A stretch of 64,000 bases of DNA from an uncultured beta proteobacterium. Its GTDB lineage: Bacteria > Pseudomonadota > Gammaproteobacteria > Burkholderiales > Burkholderiaceae. The first letter of the stretch is position 1. Each line of letters starts with the position of its first letter. Positions 8,191-54,008 of this stretch are shown here, piece by piece. A program made the position numbers and the translations under genes. The notes beneath the pieces are model-generated. The model saw only the letters and a program-made list of their open reading frames with translations. It was not told the origin of the DNA and did not search any database. Location of the stretch: assembly GCA_903826775.1 (NCBI GenBank), contig CAIKFU010000090.1:1-64000 (forward strand), read 5' to 3'.

Positions 8191-8396
8191 GCAAGGCGTG
8201 AAGCCTGTACGGCCGCCATTCATGATGGCAATCAATGTTGAGCCCCTTGCTTTGGGAGGTTTTATGACCCCCGGTGATGGCTTGACCCATTTCCTCTAAA
8301 ACTGCTTTTCGCATATTCGGTCAAGTTGCTGCACTAGAGCATAGCGTTGTTTGTTAAACAAATTAGTCAACCATTTACATCCTGTAAACTCGTTCC

Positions 8397-8600
8397 GTTG
8401 ACGGTGCCTTAATGCCTTAAAAAGTATTAAAGTTAAACGGGAAGCACTAACCAAACGTGCGCTGTCCCCGCAACGGTAAGAGAATGCTCAACCAGTAGTC
8501 GGTTGGGTGCAGAATTTGAAAAGCCACTGTGCAATCCAAATGCATGGGAAGGCCAAATTCCTAAGTTCTCCAGCCCGGATATCGGCCTCAACAGGTGGAA
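8397..8600 (+). promoter_or_regulatory. Cobalamin (AdoCbl) riboswitch controlling btuB
   Basis: Conserved blocks 'cgggaagca...gctgtccccgcaacggtaag', 'agccactg', 'tgggaaggc', 'agcccggatatcggcc', 140 nt upstream of a BtuB gene. Confidence 0.93.
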
Positions 8601-8739
8601 TTAGCAACGTGGGTCATTGCGTGCCGGTAGGATGCTTTCAATTCAATTGAGGGCTTTGTCATCCATACCTCATGTGCCAATTCTGTAGATTTCAGCTAAC
8701 GGGGAAGTTGGCTGGGGAATACATGTCGAGGTATACCAA

Positions 8740-10677
8740 ATGCATCAGATTTTATTCAAAACTGCTTTGTCCAAAAAGAGCAGTAGCACGTTGTTATTGG
8801 CGCTTGCAATGGCCCTAGGTTTTGGTTTAAAACCGTTAACAGTAGTTGCTCAAAGCGCATCGTCGGTTTCGGTTTCCACTGCGAAAAATTCGTTTGACCC
8901 GGTAATCGTTACGGCAACTCGAAACAAGCAGGATGCAAATGATGTGCTTGCGGATTTTGTCTACATTGGCCCGGAGGAAATTTCGGAGGCGGGGCAAACC
9001 AGCATTACCGGATTACTGCAGCGCCAACGGGGCGTTCAGGTTTCCAGTAACGGCGGGGGCGGCAGTATTTCCAGCGTCTTCCTAAGGGGAGCCAACTCTG
9101 GCCAGACTCTTGTTTTGATTGATGGGATTCGCTCCCAATCCACCTTGTCGGGAGCGCCATCTTGGCAAGCAATCCCTTTGTCGATAGTCGACCACATTGA
9201 GATTGTCTTTGGTCCCCAAAGCAGTCTTTACGGTTCGGATGCCATTGGCGGCGTAGTGCAGATTTTTACGAAAACAGGCGATGGGCCGATGCAAGTTGGC
9301 GCTTCTGCTGGGTATGGTGGTTATGGAACCAGCATTGTTGAGGCCAGCATCTACGGATCGACTGGCGATGAGCAAAAAACCCGCTACGCCTTAAGTGCTA
9401 CGCAAGAGTTGTCGACCGGGTTTAACTCGATTGCCCCCAATAACCCCTCCATCAAGTATTACAACACCACCCAAAAAATGGGATACGTGCGCGATGGCAT
9501 GACGGGTAAACTCAGCCAGGAATGGGCCCAAGGGCAGGAGCTGGGTTTTCAGATGTTTGCTTCCCGCAACAATAGCCAGTACCCGGTCTACGATCCCACC
9601 AAAATTGTTGGTAACCAGATCAATGATGTGAGCACTTATGCCTTGTACAGCAAGAATCAAATCAATAGCATTTGGAATAGCTTGTTACAAATTTCCCAAT
9701 CCTACGATTTGGGGCAGGCCATCTACAACACGGGTAATCCGTATACGTCCGGTAATCCCGTAACCAACTCGAAGCAAAATATTTATACGTGGCAAAACGA
9801 CATCAATGTTGGGCCGGATTTGTTTCAGTTTGTGGCGGAACGCAAAACCGCTACGGTCAATGCTACTAGCGGCAGCCTCAATCAGGAGCAAGATACCAAT
9901 TCGGTAGGCGCTTCGTATCAGCTAAAGCGCGGATCCAATCTGGCCAACGTCAGTTTGCGCAACGACAGCATTACGGGGTACGGACCGCAGACTACGGGCG
10001 GCATTTCCTATGGGTATTTTTTCACCAAGGAGTGGCGTGCGAACATCAACTATGGGACGGGATTTAAGGCACCGTCTTTTTACGATTTGTACTATCCGCT
10101 GTACGGAGTAGCTAATCTCAAACCCGAGAAGAGTAAGAATACGGAAGCAGGCATTCATTACGAAACCAAGTTGTACGACATTAATTTGGTTGCCTACAAC
10201 AATTCGATAACCAACTTGATTCAATATACGTCTGGCGGATGCCCGGTGGGATACCCTTTTGGTTGCGCCAGTAATGTGGCTTCGGCAAAAATCACTGGCG
10301 TATCGCTTGGCGGGGTAACCCGATTGGGGGATTACACGCTGAAGGGATCGTTTGATCAGGAAAACCCGATTGATCAATCGACCGGTTATGTCCTGGCCAG
10401 ACGCGCCCGTCAGTTCGGTAACGTTGGTGTTGAATACAAGGCTCAAGCCATGACGGTTGGCGCGGAAGGAACATTTCAGGCTAGCCGCTATGACTATAGC
10501 AATACCGGATCCATGGGCGGGTACGGGATCTTTAATACCTATGCCAATTACGCATTCACAAAAGATTGGAGCATGTTTGGACGCTGGAACAACATGTTCA
10601 ACAAAAGCTATCAACTTAGCTATGGATACATGACGCCAGGATCGAACGTGTTTGTGGGGGTGCGGTATGCGATGTAA
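8740..10677 (+). CDS. btuB: TonB-dependent vitamin B12 receptor BtuB
   Basis: TonB box-like 'FDPVIVTATR', plug 'VFLRGANSGQTLVLIDGIRSQS', 'GPQSSLYGSDAIGGVVQIFTK', C-terminal beta-strand; behind the cobalamin riboswitch. Confidence 0.93.
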   Translation: MHQILFKTALSKKSSSTLLLALAMALGFGLKPLTVVAQSASSVSVSTAKNSFDPVIVTATRNKQDANDVLADFVYIGPEEISEAGQTSITGLLQRQRGVQVSSNGGGGSISSVFLRGANSGQTLVLIDGIRSQSTLSGAPSWQAIPLSIVDHIEIVFGPQSSLYGSDAIGGVVQIFTKTGDGPMQVGASAGYGGYGTSIVEASIYGSTGDEQKTRYALSATQELSTGFNSIAPNNPSIKYYNTTQKMGYVRDGMTGKLSQEWAQGQELGFQMFASRNNSQYPVYDPTKIVGNQINDVSTYALYSKNQINSIWNSLLQISQSYDLGQAIYNTGNPYTSGNPVTNSKQNIYTWQNDINVGPDLFQFVAERKTATVNATSGSLNQEQDTNSVGASYQLKRGSNLANVSLRNDSITGYGPQTTGGISYGYFFTKEWRANINYGTGFKAPSFYDLYYPLYGVANLKPEKSKNTEAGIHYETKLYDINLVAYNNSITNLIQYTSGGCPVGYPFGCASNVASAKITGVSLGGVTRLGDYTLKGSFDQENPIDQSTGYVLARRARQFGNVGVEYKAQAMTVGAEGTFQASRYDYSNTGSMGGYGIFNTYANYAFTKDWSMFGRWNNMFNKSYQLSYGYMTPGSNVFVGVRYAM

Positions 10678-31038: not shown

Positions 31039-31350
31039 TAGGGTTTTAAGATGTAATACCCCCCGGAGAGAGTTTTAAAGTGATTTCTTTTTTTAGGACG
31101 AGTTTTTTAGCACTAAAGATTTATTGGTCATAAACTGGTATTCCGATTCAGTTGCGTTTAGAACATTGATGACAGATCTTTTATGCGCCCCAGAAAACTC
31201 AGGGTGCAAGCAATGCTGGGTTGTTGGGGCAGGTTGTGCTTGATCAAGTTGATTATGGTGGCATGAGAGAAGGCGTTAATATGCAATATTATTTGTGCAA
31301 ATGTGTTTTGGCACTATTTGTCGTGGTTTGGTAATAATTTCCTGGGGAAA

Positions 31351-31797
31351 ATGATGAAGTTTTTAACAAATTTACTTTTCTTAATAGCCGGTGGTTTGTT
31401 CGTGACTCAATATGTGCTGTCTGCGCCATTAATTAGTGCAAAAGAAGCCGATCTTCCCGTTGCTTCCCAAGCGCTGCCTACCCGTGGAATTTCCAGAGGG
31501 CCTTCGGTCAAATTGAATTCACCTGAGGCTGACACGCCTGTAGCATCCCCGTTTGACTTAAAAGTTACGTTTGAAGCTAGGGGGGATGCCAAAATTGATC
31601 CCGATTCGATTAAGGTTATTTATATGAAATCACCTATTGTTGATTTAACCCCAAGATTAAGAAAATCCATCACTGTTAGCGGAATTGATTTTCTAAAAGC
31701 AGAAGTTCCTCCTGGTTCACATGCGATTAAGGTAACAGTAAAAGACACTGATGGTCGAGAGACGAATTCGGTGCTGAACATAATTGTGAGTAAGTAA
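31351..31797 (+). CDS. Exported hypothetical with an Ig-like/fibronectin-like domain
   Basis: Start at internal ATG 31351; signal 'MMKFLTNLLFLIAGGLFVTQYVLSA'; 'PVASPFDLKVTFEARGDAKIDPDSIKVIYMK...PPGSHAIKVTVKDTDGRETNSVLNIIV'. Confidence 0.65.
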   Translation: MMKFLTNLLFLIAGGLFVTQYVLSAPLISAKEADLPVASQALPTRGISRGPSVKLNSPEADTPVASPFDLKVTFEARGDAKIDPDSIKVIYMKSPIVDLTPRLRKSITVSGIDFLKAEVPPGSHAIKVTVKDTDGRETNSVLNIIVSK

Positions 31798-32579
31798 TGA
31801 ATTGTCCTTATTGCCTTTCTGAAGTGGATGATGCGGCGGTGGTGTGCAAAGTATGCACGAGGGATGTTTATCTATTTAAACCTATGATGGCACGCGTTGC
31901 GGAGTTGGAAAAGCAATTGGCGGAGATCGGTAATCAAACAGATTATGAAGAGCAGATATTGGGCCTAGAGGCCCGTCTTGAGGGATATGAGCAGAAAAAA
32001 TACCTTGACCGTGGATTCAAAGAAACATGCCTAGATGTATTAATCTACTTGGTTTTACCATTACTAATATTGTTGGCAGCTCATGATGTGATTACTGTTG
32101 TTTACGATACCAAAATGGTTTATTTGAGAGTAATTTCAATGGTATTGCCTTTGCCGTTTGGTTATGTTTTATTCAAGCAAATGCGCCGCCCATTATTCCC
32201 TTGGTTTATTGGTGTGATCTTTCTAGGTATTGCTTCTGTAATTGGTATGAGCTGGATTACCAGTTTGGTTGACAATTCCCCCATTCTTCCGCAAAGCACT
32301 TTTGAATGGCGAGAAGTATTGGAATATGCTGCCAGTATTGCTTTTAGTTTTCTTACTGGAATGTTGTTGGGTAGCGTGAATTACGCCAGCCATCACCAAG
32401 CCAAATCGGTAAAGGTAAATCCATTTTTAAAATTAGTTCTAAGTGCTCTTGGTGAGGAAAAATTGTCACCAGAAGCCCTGCATAAGCTCATGAAAAAAAT
32501 CAACGAATATGGGGGCACTATAGTCGCGTTAGGAACTACCGCTTTGTCAATATACACTGGGCTAAAGCACGTTCTTTAG
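31797..32579 (+). CDS. Multi-pass membrane protein with N-terminal zinc ribbon and coiled coil
   Basis: 'MNCPYCLSEVDDAAVVCKVCTRDVYLF' (CxxC...CxxC), 'RVAELEKQLAEIGNQTDYEEQILGLEARLEGYEQ', then TM helices. TAATG coupled to the upstream gene. Confidence 0.75.
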   Translation: MNCPYCLSEVDDAAVVCKVCTRDVYLFKPMMARVAELEKQLAEIGNQTDYEEQILGLEARLEGYEQKKYLDRGFKETCLDVLIYLVLPLLILLAAHDVITVVYDTKMVYLRVISMVLPLPFGYVLFKQMRRPLFPWFIGVIFLGIASVIGMSWITSLVDNSPILPQSTFEWREVLEYAASIAFSFLTGMLLGSVNYASHHQAKSVKVNPFLKLVLSALGEEKLSPEALHKLMKKINEYGGTIVALGTTALSIYTGLKHVL

Positions 32580-32695
32580 GTAATACTAAAGCAATGCAGT
32601 ACTATAAAAAGGCAATACCGATGCAGGACGAAAATATTTCTCATGCTGCCTAACCGTAAAACTTGTTCAATGCCAAATTCTGCTAAAGTTTATCT

Positions 32696-33526
32696 ATGAG
32701 CAATGGAATAAACCGTAGGACAGTTCTCAAAACTGCTGGCGCATTGGTTTGCACTTCCGCTATCCCTTCTCAATTCTTTGCTGCTAGCGATAAAGGGCTT
32801 GTAGGCCCTCGCATTGCATTGGTGATTGGGAATAGTAAATATATTGACAGTCCTTTAACCAATCCTGGTAATGATGCGATTGCGATGGTTAAGGAGCTCA
32901 AAATCTTGGGCTTTGATGCTCAATCCCTTATTGATGCGAGTCTGAAGGATTTGACCTCATCGATTCAAAGCTATAGCAATCGGTTAGCAAAGGCAAAAGC
33001 AGTCGGACTCTTTTACTATGCTGGGCATGGAGTGCAGTTGGCCTGGAGAAACTATCTGGTTCCTGTTGATGCCAATATTGACAAGGTCGACGATATTCCA
33101 AAGCAAACCTTTGAGTTAAATACCATGCTCACCGCCCTAACCAAGGCAGAGAACCCCATGAATATTATTATTTTGGATGCTTGCAGAGACAATCCGTTCG
33201 GTAAAAAATTGCCAACCGAGCAAAAAGGTTTAAGTCAATTTGACGCCCCCCCAGGATCGATCCTTTCATATGCAACTGCGCCAGGCAATGTGGCCAGTGA
33301 CGGAGCTGGCGGCAATGGATTGTTCACTGAAAATCTCTTAAGAGAGATGCGCAACCCAGAGGCAAAGATCGAGGATGTATTTAAGCGGGTTCGACTCAAG
33401 GTCAGGCTGGCCTCCAAAGGCCAGCAAATACCATGGGAAAGCACTTCCCTTGAGGAGGATTTTTACTTTAATGCCGCAGGAATTGACCCTAATAGTATTG
33501 AATCGGCGATGGGGGGAAGTAAATAA
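32696..33526 (+). CDS. Caspase-family (peptidase C14 p20-like) protein with Tat-like leader
   Basis: 'NRRTVLKTAGALVCTSAIPSQFFAA' leader; His in 'GLFYYAGHGVQ', Cys in 'IIILDACRDNPF', 'PWESTSLEEDFYF'. Confidence 0.92.
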   Translation: MSNGINRRTVLKTAGALVCTSAIPSQFFAASDKGLVGPRIALVIGNSKYIDSPLTNPGNDAIAMVKELKILGFDAQSLIDASLKDLTSSIQSYSNRLAKAKAVGLFYYAGHGVQLAWRNYLVPVDANIDKVDDIPKQTFELNTMLTALTKAENPMNIIILDACRDNPFGKKLPTEQKGLSQFDAPPGSILSYATAPGNVASDGAGGNGLFTENLLREMRNPEAKIEDVFKRVRLKVRLASKGQQIPWESTSLEEDFYFNAAGIDPNSIESAMGGSK

Positions 33527-34296
33527 TGGCTGATCTTGACGACCAACATTTCAAGGAGCAATTGTCTCTTTGGGAAAAGGCGAGTAGCAGTGGCGATCCT
33601 AAATTCACCATTGCTTATTTGGATGCTTTTCCCACCGGTTTTTACTCGCAGCTAGCAGAGGTGCGCTTAGATCAATTATTGGCTGCACAAGGTGAAAAGA
33701 AATTGGTGATACCTAGTTCCGCGAATAACCCCTTTACCAAAGGAATGGTGTCGGGAGTGATGGAGTATTCAGTGGGAGATGCCTATTCGTATAGCCGTAA
33801 AGATTCGTTAACCGGAATTGAGGAAAATGCATTTACTCAAAAGGTCACCAAGGTTACCGATAGCGAGATAACGTTTAATAATGGGCGGCAAGTTATTGAC
33901 ATTATGGGAAACGATTTAATTTCGCCGAATGAGCGCTTTCTAAGTCCCGCACAGTTTTATCCGGCTGAGTATGTGTTGGGTAATAAATGGATTACACGTT
34001 ATGCATGGAAAAAGGGGGATGGCGTAGATTCAAGCGTGGAGATGGAATTTAAAATAATCGGGCGCGAAAAAATGGAAACTCCTGCAGGTAGGTTTAATGC
34101 TTTTGTTATCGATGGTATGGGTTATGTTCTTGGGGGTAGTAAATTTGAAATGCGCTACTGGATTGATCCAGAAACCTGCAATCGACCCATTTGGTTCGAT
34201 CGGGTTTCAAAAAACCGCAAGCAAGGTAAGGTACGCATGTCGACTCGGGATGAATTGGTTAGTTTTCACCAGAAAAAATCCGCAAAGAAAAGTTAA
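33526..34296 (+). CDS. Caspase-partner hypothetical; N-terminus resembles the tail normally fused to bacterial caspases
   Basis: TAATG overlap with the caspase stop; 'QLSLWEKASSSGDPKFTIAYLDAFPTGFYSQLAEVRLDQLLA' resembles the usual post-caspase segment; no signal peptide. Confidence 0.72.
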   Translation: MADLDDQHFKEQLSLWEKASSSGDPKFTIAYLDAFPTGFYSQLAEVRLDQLLAAQGEKKLVIPSSANNPFTKGMVSGVMEYSVGDAYSYSRKDSLTGIEENAFTQKVTKVTDSEITFNNGRQVIDIMGNDLISPNERFLSPAQFYPAEYVLGNKWITRYAWKKGDGVDSSVEMEFKIIGREKMETPAGRFNAFVIDGMGYVLGGSKFEMRYWIDPETCNRPIWFDRVSKNRKQGKVRMSTRDELVSFHQKKSAKKS

Positions 34297-47886: not shown

Positions 47887-49158
47887 ATGACGCTGGATTA
47901 TGAAACCATTCATAAGACATTTAAGTTTATTAATATGTTTTGTTTCGGTTATCCATTTGTGATGGCATGGTATTGGATTACTGGATCCTTTTTGTATTTC
48001 CTCATTCGCGAACGGCATGAGCCGCCTGCGGGGATTCCCCCGGCGCTGCCTGCTTACCCATTTGTCTCCGTATTGCTCCCATGTTTTAACGAGTCGGAAC
48101 AACTTGAAGAGACAATGTCGGTTTTGATGCAATTGGATTACCCAAATTTCGAAGTAATTGCTATCAATGATGGCTCAAGCGATGATACTGCAACGATCCT
48201 AAATTCACTTTTAATGCGTTATCCCAAGTTGCGGGTTGCGCATTTGGTTGAGAATCAAGGAAAATCAACGGCGCTAAATACGGGTCTTTTTTTGTCAAAA
48301 GGCGAAATCCTTGTTTGTATTGATGGTGATGCATTATTGGATCCTCATGCTGCGACCTGGTTTGTACGGTATTTTCAAACCAATAAAAACATAGGCGCAT
48401 TGACCGGAAACCCGCGGATTCGCAATCGCAGCACTTTATTGGGGCGATTGCAAATTGGCGAATTTTCATCCATTGTTGGGATGATCAAGCGCACACAGAC
48501 CGTATATGGTTCTTTATTTACGGTATCCGGCGTCATTTGTGCATTTCGAAAGGCCGCGGTAATGGAGGCCGGTTTTTGGTCGCCAGGGGCTATGACAGAC
48601 GATGTCGATCTAACCTTACGCATTCAATCTGCTGGTTGGGATGTGGCATTTGAACCCAAGGCGTTGTGCTGGATCCTGATGCCTGAAAAGTTAAAAGGGT
48701 TGTGGCGCCAAAGATTGCGTTGGTCGGAGGGGGGATCGCAAGCGGTACTGAAGGTTACCAAAGAAATTGTTTCTAAGCGCGCATGGGGTTTGGTTCCGAT
48801 CCTCCTGAATTTTTATGTCAGCACGATTTGGGCATTTTGCATACTTGGATCCATAGCGTTTTGGTGCGCGATGAAGTCGCTTGGATTGGATGTTGATGAT
48901 AGCCTCAGTCCAATTCCTGATTGGTGGGGAACAATCCTATCCTGTACTTATTTATTTCAATCGATCATCGGCTTGATGTTGGATTCTCGATATGAAAAAG
49001 GAATTCTAAAATCATTTGCCTGGATCATTTGGTATCCATTACTGTATTGGTTAATGCAATCGACTACCGCTGCTTTGGGATTTCTGAGGGCCTTAAAACG
49101 CCCTGCTCAAGCGAAAGGTACCTGGATCAGTCCTGATCGGGGGATCAAAGATGACTAA
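47887..49158 (+). CDS. pgaC: Poly-beta-1,6-N-acetyl-D-glucosamine synthase PgaC (GT2)
   Basis: 'VSVLLPCFNESEQLEETMSVLMQLDYPNFEVIAINDGSSDDTA', 'MTDDVDLTLRIQSAGW', 'LWRQRLRWSEGG' (QxxRW). Confidence 0.93.
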   Translation: MTLDYETIHKTFKFINMFCFGYPFVMAWYWITGSFLYFLIRERHEPPAGIPPALPAYPFVSVLLPCFNESEQLEETMSVLMQLDYPNFEVIAINDGSSDDTATILNSLLMRYPKLRVAHLVENQGKSTALNTGLFLSKGEILVCIDGDALLDPHAATWFVRYFQTNKNIGALTGNPRIRNRSTLLGRLQIGEFSSIVGMIKRTQTVYGSLFTVSGVICAFRKAAVMEAGFWSPGAMTDDVDLTLRIQSAGWDVAFEPKALCWILMPEKLKGLWRQRLRWSEGGSQAVLKVTKEIVSKRAWGLVPILLNFYVSTIWAFCILGSIAFWCAMKSLGLDVDDSLSPIPDWWGTILSCTYLFQSIIGLMLDSRYEKGILKSFAWIIWYPLLYWLMQSTTAALGFLRALKRPAQAKGTWISPDRGIKDD

Positions 49159-49639
49159 GCAAGTGGTTAAGCCAATGAAGTGGCCCCCAATCATTTATAG
49201 GACATCCATTTCACCATGGGTGAAATTAAGGGATGCGGTAATGACGTTTTTGGCTTGGACTGTATTAATTTTGTTATTGCAAGGACTTTGGATTTTGATT
49301 CGAGATTTCTTTAGCGAGCCTATTTTTCATTTACTCCCGAATCAAGAACCCGATTGGTTGGGTATATGGATGCGCTTGCGCATTTTTGCCATACTCACCG
49401 GGATTGTTGTCACGTGGATCCTCGTTTTTAGCCTTTTTAGATACAGCTCAATTAAACGAATCAAGTCCGTTTATCACCACCCTACGTATACGGATTTGAA
49501 TCGGTTGACGGCTGAATTTGGACTGTCACCGATAGAGATACTGGAGTGGCAGGACTTAAGATGCGTAGACGTCTTCATTGATCCCAATGGCAGAATTGAG
49601 GAAGTCAAACCGATTAACGAGACAATTACCAACCAATAA
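49151..49639 (+). CDS. pgaD: PgaD-like c-di-GMP-responsive subunit of PNAG synthase
   Basis: Two-TM small protein between pgaC and pgaA, 'RDAVMTFLAWTVLILLLQGLW', 'IAGxW-like WILVFSLFRYSSIKR'; called mainly by position and size. Confidence 0.8.
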   Translation: MTKQVVKPMKWPPIIYRTSISPWVKLRDAVMTFLAWTVLILLLQGLWILIRDFFSEPIFHLLPNQEPDWLGIWMRLRIFAILTGIVVTWILVFSLFRYSSIKRIKSVYHHPTYTDLNRLTAEFGLSPIEILEWQDLRCVDVFIDPNGRIEEVKPINETITNQ

Positions 49640-52085
49640 ACGACTGAAGCCATTGTCCAAGTTACCCATTCTTCTCGGATCGTTTTTTTTCATATTTACC
49701 AATCCTGTGATTGTGAGCCTAGCAATTGCCGAATCCGTTCTGACAAACCCAAGTCAGATTTCGGAGGAGGAGTTTTATCAAAAAGCCTTGTTGCTGAATA
49801 AAGAAGGCAAAGGCAAGGAATCGATGCAAATACTACAAGGGCTTATGAAAGACCACCCCAAAATCGAGCGCTACAAATTCGATTATCTGGCGGTTGCAAG
49901 TGCTAGTGGATTTGATCAAGAAGTTTCAACTTATGTCGATGGCGAATTTGAAAAAAATGCCCCAAGCTATGTTCAAGACGCCTTGTTTAAATCCGCATTG
50001 GCTGTGAATGATGTAAATAGAATGGAATTGGTTGGGAATGCCATTATTTCCAGCAGGGGTTTGCAATTGAATGTTGGTAATAAATTGGTGTTTGCGGCAC
50101 TTCAGAGGGGTGATTCGGTTAAGGCTTTGGATTTGAGTCGAAAATTGATTGATAAGTTTCCAAATGAGCTTGCATCTTGGGACACGAGAGCTTATGTTTT
50201 GCGTGAATTGGGCCGACCAACAGAAGCCCTGTTGGTGTACGAGGGAATGGCCGATCGTTTTCCAGAAGATATAAATGCACGTAAAGCGATTGTCATAATT
50301 TTGTTGGGATTGGGAGCGGCCCATCAGGCCGATCGATTAGCTGCTCAATATCATGTCACCATTTCCGATAGCGAAAGAATTCGCATTATGAATGGCGAAG
50401 GGGTTTCGGATTTGCGTTGGGCAACCTTTGATCCAGATACTCCTTCCGAGCGCTATCTTCACGCAAACCGTTCTATAGGTGAGCTGGATAAAGCTTTGTC
50501 ATTTGCGTTATCCAATCGAGGGGCTGATGATGAGTTGAACCGGATCAGGGCGGACTTGATTGTCGCCTACCAAGAGAGAAGGCTATGGAGTCAATCAATT
50601 GAACAATACGAGTTCATGTTGAGTAGCGGCGCCACTGTTCCTAGTTATGCCAAGTTATCCGCGGCATTTAGTTATGGGGCGATGCGCAAATATGTCGTGG
50701 CGGAAAATATTTTGCATGAACTGGCTATGGAAAATCCGGACTCCTTTGAGATTTCTATGGGTTGGTTTTATTCCTTGGTGGATATGGATCACTTTGGCAA
50801 GGCGCAAGGGGTGATTGATGATTTGATTGCTCGGTACAGTAAAGCGGATAGGCAGATGGGGTCAAAGGCTGCTGCCTATACCGATGCGCTGATTGCGCGT
50901 GCCATGCTCGAAGCCTATCAGGACAGGTTGGATCTTGCCGCGGCTAGATTGAATGACATTTTGGTCCTTGCTCCGGCATCCGATTCGGCGCTGGCTTCGT
51001 TGGCAGCCGTTGAATTATGGCGTGGATTGCCGCGTAGCTCCCAGGAGTATTCCCAGATCGTGTTAGGTGAGTATCCGGGTAATGTGAATTCCAAAATCGC
51101 TTATGCCAATGCCCGTATGGATCAAGGGGATATTGCGTCATTTAAATCAACGTTGCATTCCTTGGATAAGGATTACTCCGATATTAAGTCTGTGATTGAT
51201 GCAAAAAAACGGGAAACCTTGTTTGATAAGCCGTATGTTGTTGGTAATATTGTTCTGGGTAATGGATACGACAATACAGCCAATAATAATGATTGGACTG
51301 CTGATATTCGTGGGTATAGCGCTCCTTTTGCAGATGACCAATTAAGGGGGTTCGCGAGGTATCGAGGACTGGGGAGTGCCCCCACAATAAACACCAATCA
51401 GAATGGGGTCGGCGCAGGATTGCAGGCCACCGGAATTAATAAGAGCGGTGAAATTGAAGTGGGTGATAAGGCGTATGCACGAGCTGAAGGAAAGTACGAA
51501 TTTTCCGATTACTTTTCCGCCAAAGCTTCGTTCGAAAAAAATGTTTTTTATTTACCTCCAAAAGCCGTAATTGCCGGAGTTACCGGCAATATGTCTAATG
51601 TCGTTTTCAACTGGCATCAGGATGAGGGCCTCAATGCCTTTGCTGGATACAGGTATTTTAATTTAACAGGGAATGAGAAGTCTGAAGCCTATGCTATGGT
51701 GACTAAAAGGCTCCTGACTTCGTATGACAAACGACTTAGCGTATCAGGGTGGGTGCAAAATCAAAAAAATACTAATCCGAATGTAGCCTACTTTGCACCA
51801 GCAAATCAACTTGAAGGCTCTGCAACATTAACGTATGAATTTTTGCACGGCAGGGATTTAGAGACTAAAAAGTATTCCCTTTGGCATAAAGTTTGGGTAA
51901 CCTATGGCGTTGTTTCGCAATACAGCTATTCGACTCTCCCCATGTTTGCTTACGGGTATGGCCAGGAAATTTCCCTAGGTGATCCTTATTCGTTCAGATG
52001 GGGAGTTGGCAGAACCACGTTTCCTTTTGATGGCGTGCTTTCATCCTATTACACCGGCTATATCGGATTTACGGGGCATTTTTAA
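49578..52085 (+). CDS. pgaA: PgaA-like PNAG export porin (TPR + beta-barrel); true start may be somewhat downstream
   Basis: TPR-rich N-terminal half, C-terminal beta-barrel ending 'YYTGYIGFTGHF'; between pgaD and pgaB. Confidence 0.87.
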   Translation: MIPMAELRKSNRLTRQLPTNKRLKPLSKLPILLGSFFFIFTNPVIVSLAIAESVLTNPSQISEEEFYQKALLLNKEGKGKESMQILQGLMKDHPKIERYKFDYLAVASASGFDQEVSTYVDGEFEKNAPSYVQDALFKSALAVNDVNRMELVGNAIISSRGLQLNVGNKLVFAALQRGDSVKALDLSRKLIDKFPNELASWDTRAYVLRELGRPTEALLVYEGMADRFPEDINARKAIVIILLGLGAAHQADRLAAQYHVTISDSERIRIMNGEGVSDLRWATFDPDTPSERYLHANRSIGELDKALSFALSNRGADDELNRIRADLIVAYQERRLWSQSIEQYEFMLSSGATVPSYAKLSAAFSYGAMRKYVVAENILHELAMENPDSFEISMGWFYSLVDMDHFGKAQGVIDDLIARYSKADRQMGSKAAAYTDALIARAMLEAYQDRLDLAAARLNDILVLAPASDSALASLAAVELWRGLPRSSQEYSQIVLGEYPGNVNSKIAYANARMDQGDIASFKSTLHSLDKDYSDIKSVIDAKKRETLFDKPYVVGNIVLGNGYDNTANNNDWTADIRGYSAPFADDQLRGFARYRGLGSAPTINTNQNGVGAGLQATGINKSGEIEVGDKAYARAEGKYEFSDYFSAKASFEKNVFYLPPKAVIAGVTGNMSNVVFNWHQDEGLNAFAGYRYFNLTGNEKSEAYAMVTKRLLTSYDKRLSVSGWVQNQKNTNPNVAYFAPANQLEGSATLTYEFLHGRDLETKKYSLWHKVWVTYGVVSQYSYSTLPMFAYGYGQEISLGDPYSFRWGVGRTTFPFDGVLSSYYTGYIGFTGHF

Positions 52086-52088
52086 TTT

Positions 52089-54008
52089 ATGAAAAGATAC
52101 TTGTTCCTGTTCTTGATTTTGGCGATTATCAGCTTGAAAGCGAATGCCGATAGCACATTACATGTGTTGTGCTATCACGATATTGTGGAAAACATTAATG
52201 GAGAATCCTATCCTGATGATCGGACTGTCAGGCAACTGGTCTCGGACTTTGGTTGGTTAAAAGAAAGTGGCTATACAGTCATCTCGGCACAAGATTTACT
52301 GGATGCGCACGCGGGGAAAAAAGTTCTACCTGAAAAATCGGCAATGCTTACTTTTGATGACGGCTATAGGAGTTTTTATACGCATGTATTCCCACTTCTA
52401 AAGGCATTTAACTATCCTGCAACCTTGGGGGTAGTTGGTTCCTGGTTAGAAACTGCTGATTCCGGAATGGTTTTCTACGGCGGTAAACAAGTGCCACGTT
52501 CGCATTTTGTATCCCTTAAGCAGTTAAAGGAAATGCACGATAGTGGATTGGTTGAAATCGCTTCACATAGTTATGACTTGCATCACGGTGTATTGGGGAA
52601 TCCACAGGGCAATGAAATGCCAGCCGCGACGACAAGATCATATGACCGCATTAATAATGAATACGAAGATGATGTGACATACGAAGCCAGAATATCTAAC
52701 GATTTGAAGCGCAATAGTAAATTCATTGAACTTGCGGTTGGCCAGAGGCCTCGTGTAATGGTTTGGCCATATGGTCGTTACAACGGGCTGGCACAAGAAA
52801 TTGCGAAAAAAGCCGGCATGGAAATCAATTTGTCTTTGAGTGACGAGAGCAATAGCCTGGATGCCAAGTCGTTGACCTTATCACGAGATTACATGGTAAG
52901 TAAACCCTATCTTTCAAATGTCGCATCCGATTTTCAGGAGCCAAAACCCAGAGTGATACGCGTGATGCATGTGGATTTGGATTACATTTATAGTGCAGAT
53001 CCGACAGAGCAGGAAAAGAATTTAAGTTTATTGCTTGAGCGCATCAAGGAAGCGGGCGTTAATACAGTGTTTCTACAGGCATTTGCGGATGATGATGCTT
53101 CGGGAGTAGCTAAAAGCCTATATTTTCCTAATAGTGAATTGCCTATGAAGGCAGATTTATTTGGTCGGGTTAGTTGGCAAATTTCAACCCGAACTGGCGC
53201 TAGAGTTTTTGCATGGCTCCCTTTAACCGCTTTTATTCCCCAAGATGATCGGTATAAGGGATTGAATTTTGTGCAGTCATACAACGGAATTTCCGGAGTG
53301 GGATATCAGCGCTTAAGTTCGTTTTCATTCGAGTCAAGAAAATATATTCAGAAAATCTACGAAGACTTGGGGAAATACACCTATTTCTCCGGACTTATCA
53401 TTCACGATGATGCGACACTTTCGGATTTTGAGGATTCCGGGCCAGATGCCATGCAGTATTATTCCTCGCACTTGGGTTTACCAAAAGATGTTGGGTCAAT
53501 TCGATCGGATCCTCAGTTGATGCACCGTTGGACAAAATTTAAAACAGAGCATCTTTCTCTTTTTGCGCGGGAGTTAAGGGAGGCGACCCAAAATTACCGC
53601 AAACCAATTGATTTGGCGCGTAATTATTATGCCGAGCCGATTCTCAATCCCGTCGCAGAGGAATGGTTTTCACAATCATTAGAAGATGGCTTAAAGCATT
53701 TTGATTGGGTTGCTGTCATGGCGATGCCTTATATGGAAAAAGCCAAAAATCCGAAGAAGTGGCTGGAGCTATTGGTTCAAAAAGTTCAATCTATTCCTGG
53801 GGCTGATAAAAAAGTAATCTTTGAACTGCAGGCAAAGGATTGGAATAAGGGCACTTATATTTCCAATCATGAAATGAATTCCTGGATGAAAATGCTGCGG
53901 GTGAAGGGGGCTTTGAACTTTGGTTACTACCCCGATGACCCGTTCTCCAATCATCCAGATATTCAGGTTATTAAGAAAGAACTCTCTAGAAAGGATTACG
54001 TTGAGTGA
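52089..54008 (+). CDS. pgaB: PNAG N-deacetylase PgaB (NodB-like + C-terminal glycosyl-hydrolase-like domain)
   Basis: 'LHVLCYHDIVENINGESYPDDRTVRQLVSDFGWLKESGYTVISAQDLLDAHAGKKVLPEKSAMLTFDDGYRSFYTHVFPLLKAF', 'VMHVDLDYIYSADPTEQEKNLSLLLERIKEAGVNTVFLQAFADDD'. Confidence 0.95.
   Translation: MKRYLFLFLILAIISLKANADSTLHVLCYHDIVENINGESYPDDRTVRQLVSDFGWLKESGYTVISAQDLLDAHAGKKVLPEKSAMLTFDDGYRSFYTHVFPLLKAFNYPATLGVVGSWLETADSGMVFYGGKQVPRSHFVSLKQLKEMHDSGLVEIASHSYDLHHGVLGNPQGNEMPAATTRSYDRINNEYEDDVTYEARISNDLKRNSKFIELAVGQRPRVMVWPYGRYNGLAQEIAKKAGMEINLSLSDESNSLDAKSLTLSRDYMVSKPYLSNVASDFQEPKPRVIRVMHVDLDYIYSADPTEQEKNLSLLLERIKEAGVNTVFLQAFADDDASGVAKSLYFPNSELPMKADLFGRVSWQISTRTGARVFAWLPLTAFIPQDDRYKGLNFVQSYNGISGVGYQRLSSFSFESRKYIQKIYEDLGKYTYFSGLIIHDDATLSDFEDSGPDAMQYYSSHLGLPKDVGSIRSDPQLMHRWTKFKTEHLSLFARELREATQNYRKPIDLARNYYAEPILNPVAEEWFSQSLEDGLKHFDWVAVMAMPYMEKAKNPKKWLELLVQKVQSIPGADKKVIFELQAKDWNKGTYISNHEMNSWMKMLRVKGALNFGYYPDDPFSNHPDIQVIKKELSRKDYVE

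Follow-up and report, generated by a model that had tools for sequence, protein, structure and literature searches.

Why does a caspase with an export-type leader stand among genes of catabolism and transport, and which of its neighbors does it work with? The question is raised by four plus-strand open reading frames (Table 1) in the window, the 64,000-nucleotide stretch analyzed here, which lies on contig C90 of the 2.56-Mb genome of a freshwater bacterium of the Polynucleobacter type. The original prediction regarded them as a four-gene cassette of two translationally coupled pairs that interrupts catabolic genes. Both TAATG overlaps, the first at 31797 and the second at 33526, are present in the sequence, and the flanks encode xanthine-dehydrogenase-type proteins, TctC receptors, RraA, HpcH, Fe-ADH and a CoA-transferase, so that the neighbors of the block are indeed catabolic or transport genes. 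No tRNA was found in the window, and terminator and promoter scans gave matches not above those of shuffled sequence. Elsewhere, the window carries pga-like polysaccharide genes (47887-54008; glycosyltransferase, PgaA barrel, deacetylase/GHL13) and a cobalamin riboswitch (8384-8604) upstream of a TonB-dependent receptor gene (8740-10677). The host genome has one C14 gene, which adjoins its only pair of genes 1 and 2 (G1-G2), and a family-model search across the genome found no CHAT match; the grouping is therefore beyond chance. We give an even chance to the reading developed below, that these genes belong to an exported, Arg-specific caspase-fold protease module acting on or through G1 and G2.

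Table 1. Features of the locus, in window coordinates
Feature	Position	Strand	Basis
TPR-CHAT gene remnant (final ~75 codons, spread over two frames), its end directly ahead of gene 1	31112..31334	+	tblastn
G1, Ig/PKD-like protein, predicted exported, 148 aa	31351..31797	+	ORF, alignments
TRGISRGP motif of G1 (residues 44-51), candidate cleavage site	31480..31503	+	column entropies, similarity to MALT1 consensus
G2, predicted inner-membrane protein with N-terminal zinc ribbon, coiled coil and ~4-5 membrane segments	31797..32579	+	ORF, alignment, hydropathy
Zinc-ribbon cysteines C3, C6, C17 and C20 of G2	31803..31856	+	invariant in 32 homologues
C14 caspase (gene 3), twin-arginine leader, His111/Cys163	32696..33526	+	Pfam; closest solved structures are MALT1 paracaspase
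Twin-arginine motif NRRTVLK	32711..32731	+	sequence; RR kept in relatives
Catalytic His111 (33026-33028) to Cys163 (33182-33184)	33026..33184	+	alignments
Partner (gene 4), C-terminal half split from the caspase protein; helical YL..YP motif and DUF3108/YmcC-like beta domain; lacks its own export signal	33526..34296	+	fused in relatives

Comparison with their relatives indicates that genes 3 and 4 encode the two halves of a single protein. Most close homologues of gene 4 are found at the C terminus of longer caspase proteins (526 aa in L007, 704 aa in L020). Of 20 caspase-partner proteins compared, three, those of the window, L019 and L158, are split, and they are interspersed with fused relatives from Polynucleobacter. 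In each of the three, the two genes share 1 or 4 nt; a fourth split call, in L008, may be a frame break. As parts of one chain, both halves of the fused forms are predicted to be exported together. After the split, the partner would either leave the cytoplasm as a Tat hitchhiker or remain inside. Family models find gene 4 weakly DUF3108-like, and a Foldseek match to YmcC-like proteins (E = 3e-6) gives a weak hint in the same direction from a mediocre model (pLDDT 61).

The cassette of four genes as a conserved unit did not survive the comparison of neighborhoods: genes 3 and 4 are halves of one protein, genes 1 and 2 usually stand with a TPR-CHAT, and many Polynucleobacter C14 caspases stand away from G1-G2. 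We replaced it with a trio of G1, G2 and a protease, which is the conserved unit. The overlapping G1-G2 pair almost always has one clan-CD protease next to it, which is a C14 caspase or a TPR-CHAT whose leader is of the Sec type. G2 is present in 56 of the 186 Polynucleobacter species, and the third gene usually encodes a TPR-CHAT protein of ~1,050 aa, with a signal-like N terminus, TPRs and a CHAT domain (PF12770, E = 1.7e-48), in which the His/Cys dyad is conserved (38 sequences). Within three genes of G2, 43 of the 56 loci have a CHAT gene, 8 have a C14 gene and 5 have neither, and the proteases are all on the same strand. Contig ends truncate three of these five loci (L140, L145 and L166), which leaves 53 evaluable loci, and at L155 the C terminus of a CHAT protein lies at the contig edge; only L141, with G1-G2 and no protease nearby, is a real exception. 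A caspase-fold protease thus accompanies G1-G2 in 52 of 53 evaluable loci. In 48 of 52 loci, G1 and G2 still overlap (-1 or -4 nt). By genome, G2 occurs in 19 of the 30 that have a C14a caspase (Fisher p = 4.5e-5, among related genomes that are not independent).

The same association is found outside the genus. Of 340 Burkholderiales genomes, 14 gave a match to a G2 profile, the window's own among them and two of the matches weak. All ten readable neighborhoods from five other Burkholderiales families hold the protease association (L218, cut by a contig end, was left out). The order is CHAT-G1-G2 in families f18 and f21; in f50 the three genes are adjacent, with G2 on the strand opposite to G1; in f13, a second caspase and an OmpA protein come after G1-G2-caspase; and in f49, G2 adjoins a caspase. 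Variovorax paradoxus VAI-C has a CHAT gene, G1 and a zinc-ribbon protein, and the conjugative plasmid pS11L-1 of the alphaproteobacterium Bradyrhizobium japonicum (L226) has a TPR-CHAT gene and G1 with no recognized G2. Class-wide profile searches gave one marginal match each beyond the own genome. These neighborhoods bear out the proposal that genes 1 and 2 form one module with the caspase. The block does interrupt catabolic genes, as chance neighbors within a catabolic island would; nevertheless, chance is hardly credible for an association that spans 19 genomic contexts as well as other families and plasmids and in which the protease has been exchanged repeatedly.

The exchange has been between CHAT and C14 proteases. 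On a tree of G2, the C14 label needs 8 changes, at least 7 of which are forced by well-supported branches. The G2 of the window is sister to that of a CHAT locus (support 98/95), and that of L160, a caspase locus, is sister to that of L120, a CHAT locus (100/99); long branches make the deep parts of this tree uncertain, and both pairs are shallow. The window itself preserves part of the lost gene. The sequence ahead of G1 matches the C-terminal part of the CHAT protein of L173 (tblastn; residues 980 to 1003 at 67% and 1002 to 1053 at 52% identity, E = 2e-13), so the apparent intergenic gap is a gene fossil, and the frameshifted CHAT remnant upstream of G1 implies that a protease swap occurred at this locus. 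With the CHAT stump still beside the caspase that was recruited, the locus records a protease exchange directly. CHAT genes are also fragmented beside G1-G2 in L122, L131 and L154, and in L154 alone G2 itself is broken and no G1 was found; hence, the module decays in some lineages.

What purpose could a module with such a distribution serve? One answer is an anti-phage (abortive) system, in which an envelope disturbance linked to infection would activate the protease, and a membrane-damaging G2 would then be opened or released, leading to cell death or arrest. Patchy presence, many locations, broken copies and one conjugative plasmid are consistent with this idea, and both caspase effectors and protease swapping are known from defense systems such as Canu. 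However, PADLOC gave nothing beyond a generic caspase model, no toxin or pore family was recognized, and the commonest site, shared by 32 loci, is fixed beside the housekeeping genes rfaD/ComEA. We regard an abortive system as unlikely. The same stable site would suit a protease for envelope housekeeping or stress, which processes or surveys exported proteins and lipoproteins, with a DUF3108/YmcC-like partner that binds lipid or lipoprotein and a G2 that reports to the cytoplasm, with no part in immunity. OmpA and lipoprotein partners at some loci, and the similarity of the partner fold to YmcC/LolA-type proteins, point the same way, whereas the absence of the module from two thirds of the genus and the low confidence of the partner model speak against it; overall, such a role seems to us somewhat doubtful. 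We also noted two recurrent arrangements around caspases. In a second type of caspase neighborhood (L189, L190 and L192-L195), zinc-ribbon/OmpA and DUF4407-type membrane proteins surround the caspase, and a lipoprotein, a caspase-DUF4384 protein and an OmpA-like protein recur together (L146, L164, L180, L184 and, in f13, L215-L219), often by G1-G2 or a C14a caspase.

The reading that we prefer, an exported protease cutting after arginine, starts from the caspase itself. It matches Pfam Peptidase_C14 (PF00656) with an E value of 1.5e-38 (133.3 bits versus a cut-off of 21.4), and its catalytic dyad is intact, as predicted, with His111 in YYAGHG and Cys163 in DACRD both invariant in the caspase alignment. 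Export of the module proteins is predicted from their leader sequences; the caspase leader scores below the cut-offs of the curated Pfam and TIGR Tat models despite its NRRTVLK motif. The acidic residues of the S1 pocket of MALT1 are D365, D462 and E500 (PMC4357240), and D60, D161 and D202 of the window caspase align with them. The P1 residue is listed as arginine for both separases and paracaspases, and as Arg/Lys for metacaspases (PMC4357240, table). We infer from the S1 acidic residues that the window caspase is Arg-specific.

A candidate substrate for such an enzyme is G1, which had been described as an exported Ig-like protein. Its sequence carries a signal peptide, and the Ig-like fold is plausible and not proven, with weak PKD/CopC-type matches only and no family match over the cut-offs of Pfam and NCBIfam. 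G1 consists of the signal peptide, a conserved peptide of the LISAKEAxLP type, a TRGISRGP linker and a beta domain. The linker, placed between the conserved N-terminal peptide and the beta domain, is near-invariant in 67 G1 sequences (column entropies 0.1 to 0.5; 0.95 for S48), with variable residues on either side. It resembles the cleavage consensus of the paracaspase MALT1, Phi-X-P/S-R'-G/A (PMC6125328). Related motifs recur in the proteases: LATRG, near-invariant among CHAT domains, directly follows a variable stretch and precedes the catalytic His; the second caspase type has TRG in the linker downstream of its catalytic Cys, and the OmpA partner of that type has TRG too. The Arg-Gly motif is absent from control neighbor families. 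On its own, the LATRG match of G1 with CHAT reaches p = 0.02, uncorrected for 18 families. Neither the window caspase nor most C14a proteins contain TRG, and the CHAT proteins of f50 and Variovorax lack it as well. Because the motif was picked post hoc, after the data had been seen, because several relatives are without it, and because the motif is reduced to R-[GA]-x-x-R-G-P, or a form close to it, in the most distant G1 proteins, we treat the cleavage site as a hypothesis and not as a result.

The motif could also be a docking or structural element, with G1-G2 neither substrate nor effector but a pair that anchors the protease to the membrane. The strong association would fit a pair of this kind, and conservation of the motif as a whole (R-G-x-x-R-G-P) is as expected of a binding site. 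Its Arg-Gly bonds, however, fit paracaspase specificity, and it recurs in protease linkers; we consider pure anchoring quite improbable.

The zinc ribbon claimed for G2 stands as far as its four cysteines are concerned, which are invariant among the homologues; neither Pfam nor NCBIfam gave a family match over the cut-off for the protein, and a single-sequence structure prediction (pLDDT 50) was too poor to use. A scan of viral contigs found relatives of neither G1 nor G2, and phage records held none of G2.

Returning to the exported Arg-specific protease module, we propose the following course of events. The caspase would be exported folded via Tat, carrying the split-off partner along as a hitchhiker, and, once activated outside the inner membrane, would cut after arginine. 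G1 would be the prime substrate, cut at TR-GISR-GP, which would part its conserved N-terminal peptide from the beta domain. This cut might then alter G2, so that either a signal passes through the membrane to the cytoplasmic zinc ribbon or the membrane is disturbed; the trigger, we would guess, is envelope stress or infection. G1 as substrate and G2 as membrane relay or effector are candidate roles, suggested by their sequences. The module may thus act in signaling or, possibly, in defense. More tentatively, and with some skepticism of our own, we suggest an envelope-side pathway of bacterial caspases, in which C14 and TPR-CHAT proteases would be exchanged as initiators that cut a shared exported substrate at Arg-Gly, and a zinc-ribbon membrane protein would relay the event across the inner membrane.

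How does the module compare with known systems? We found no published description of a G1-G2-protease module in the open-access literature. PADLOC recognized no complete defense system in the four genes, only its generic caspase model (E = 8e-11), and the scanned part of the window gave no sign of a defense island. A 2012 survey of prokaryotic metacaspases reports possible signal peptides and, in 14 operons, OmpA; in the part of it covered here, neither G1-G2 nor CHAT is described (PMC3501461). MALT1 is the closest solved relative of the caspase by sequence and shares with it the S1 acidic residues and an Arg-Gly consensus; however, MALT1 is a eukaryotic cytosolic signaling protein, whereas the window caspase is bacterial, of the Tat type, and has neither death domain nor Ig domains in its chain. 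The alternative protease is, like Csx29 of Craspase (type III-E CRISPR), a TPR-CHAT with an intact His/Cys dyad, and it differs from Csx29 in its export-type leader and in having G1-G2 alongside. The conserved neighbors of the CHAT loci, part of which were scanned with family models, are G1, G2, rfaD, ComEA and similar genes, and no gRAMP or Cas gene was seen there. As in bacterial gasdermin systems, a caspase-fold protease adjoins a membrane protein; G2, with its several membrane segments and zinc ribbon, has no recognized similarity to gasdermin, and genes 1, 2 and 4 gave no gasdermin match in Pfam, NCBIfam or PADLOC.

The nearest described logic is that of Canu. There, a MALT1-like bacterial caspase is likewise encoded with Ig-like folds, and partners are shared between protease families, its nuclease partner being common to others (PMC12799240). 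Canu differs in its pro-nuclease, CanC, and in an Ig fold that is part of the caspase itself, and the part of its description covered here gives no hint of export (PMC12799240), whereas the proteins of our module carry export or membrane signals; no pro-nuclease of the MBL fold was found beside the caspase, either in the four genes or in those genes of the flanks that were scanned. To judge from the parts of their descriptions covered here, the bacterial caspase-like systems compared are linked to defense and are not described as exported. No described system that we found appears to match the module, Canu, Craspase and gasdermin each differing from it, and it looks like an undescribed bacterial protease system. 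If our reading is right, an exported module with an exchangeable protease, a candidate substrate and a candidate site would allow a simple test of the roles of secreted bacterial caspases and CHAT proteins.
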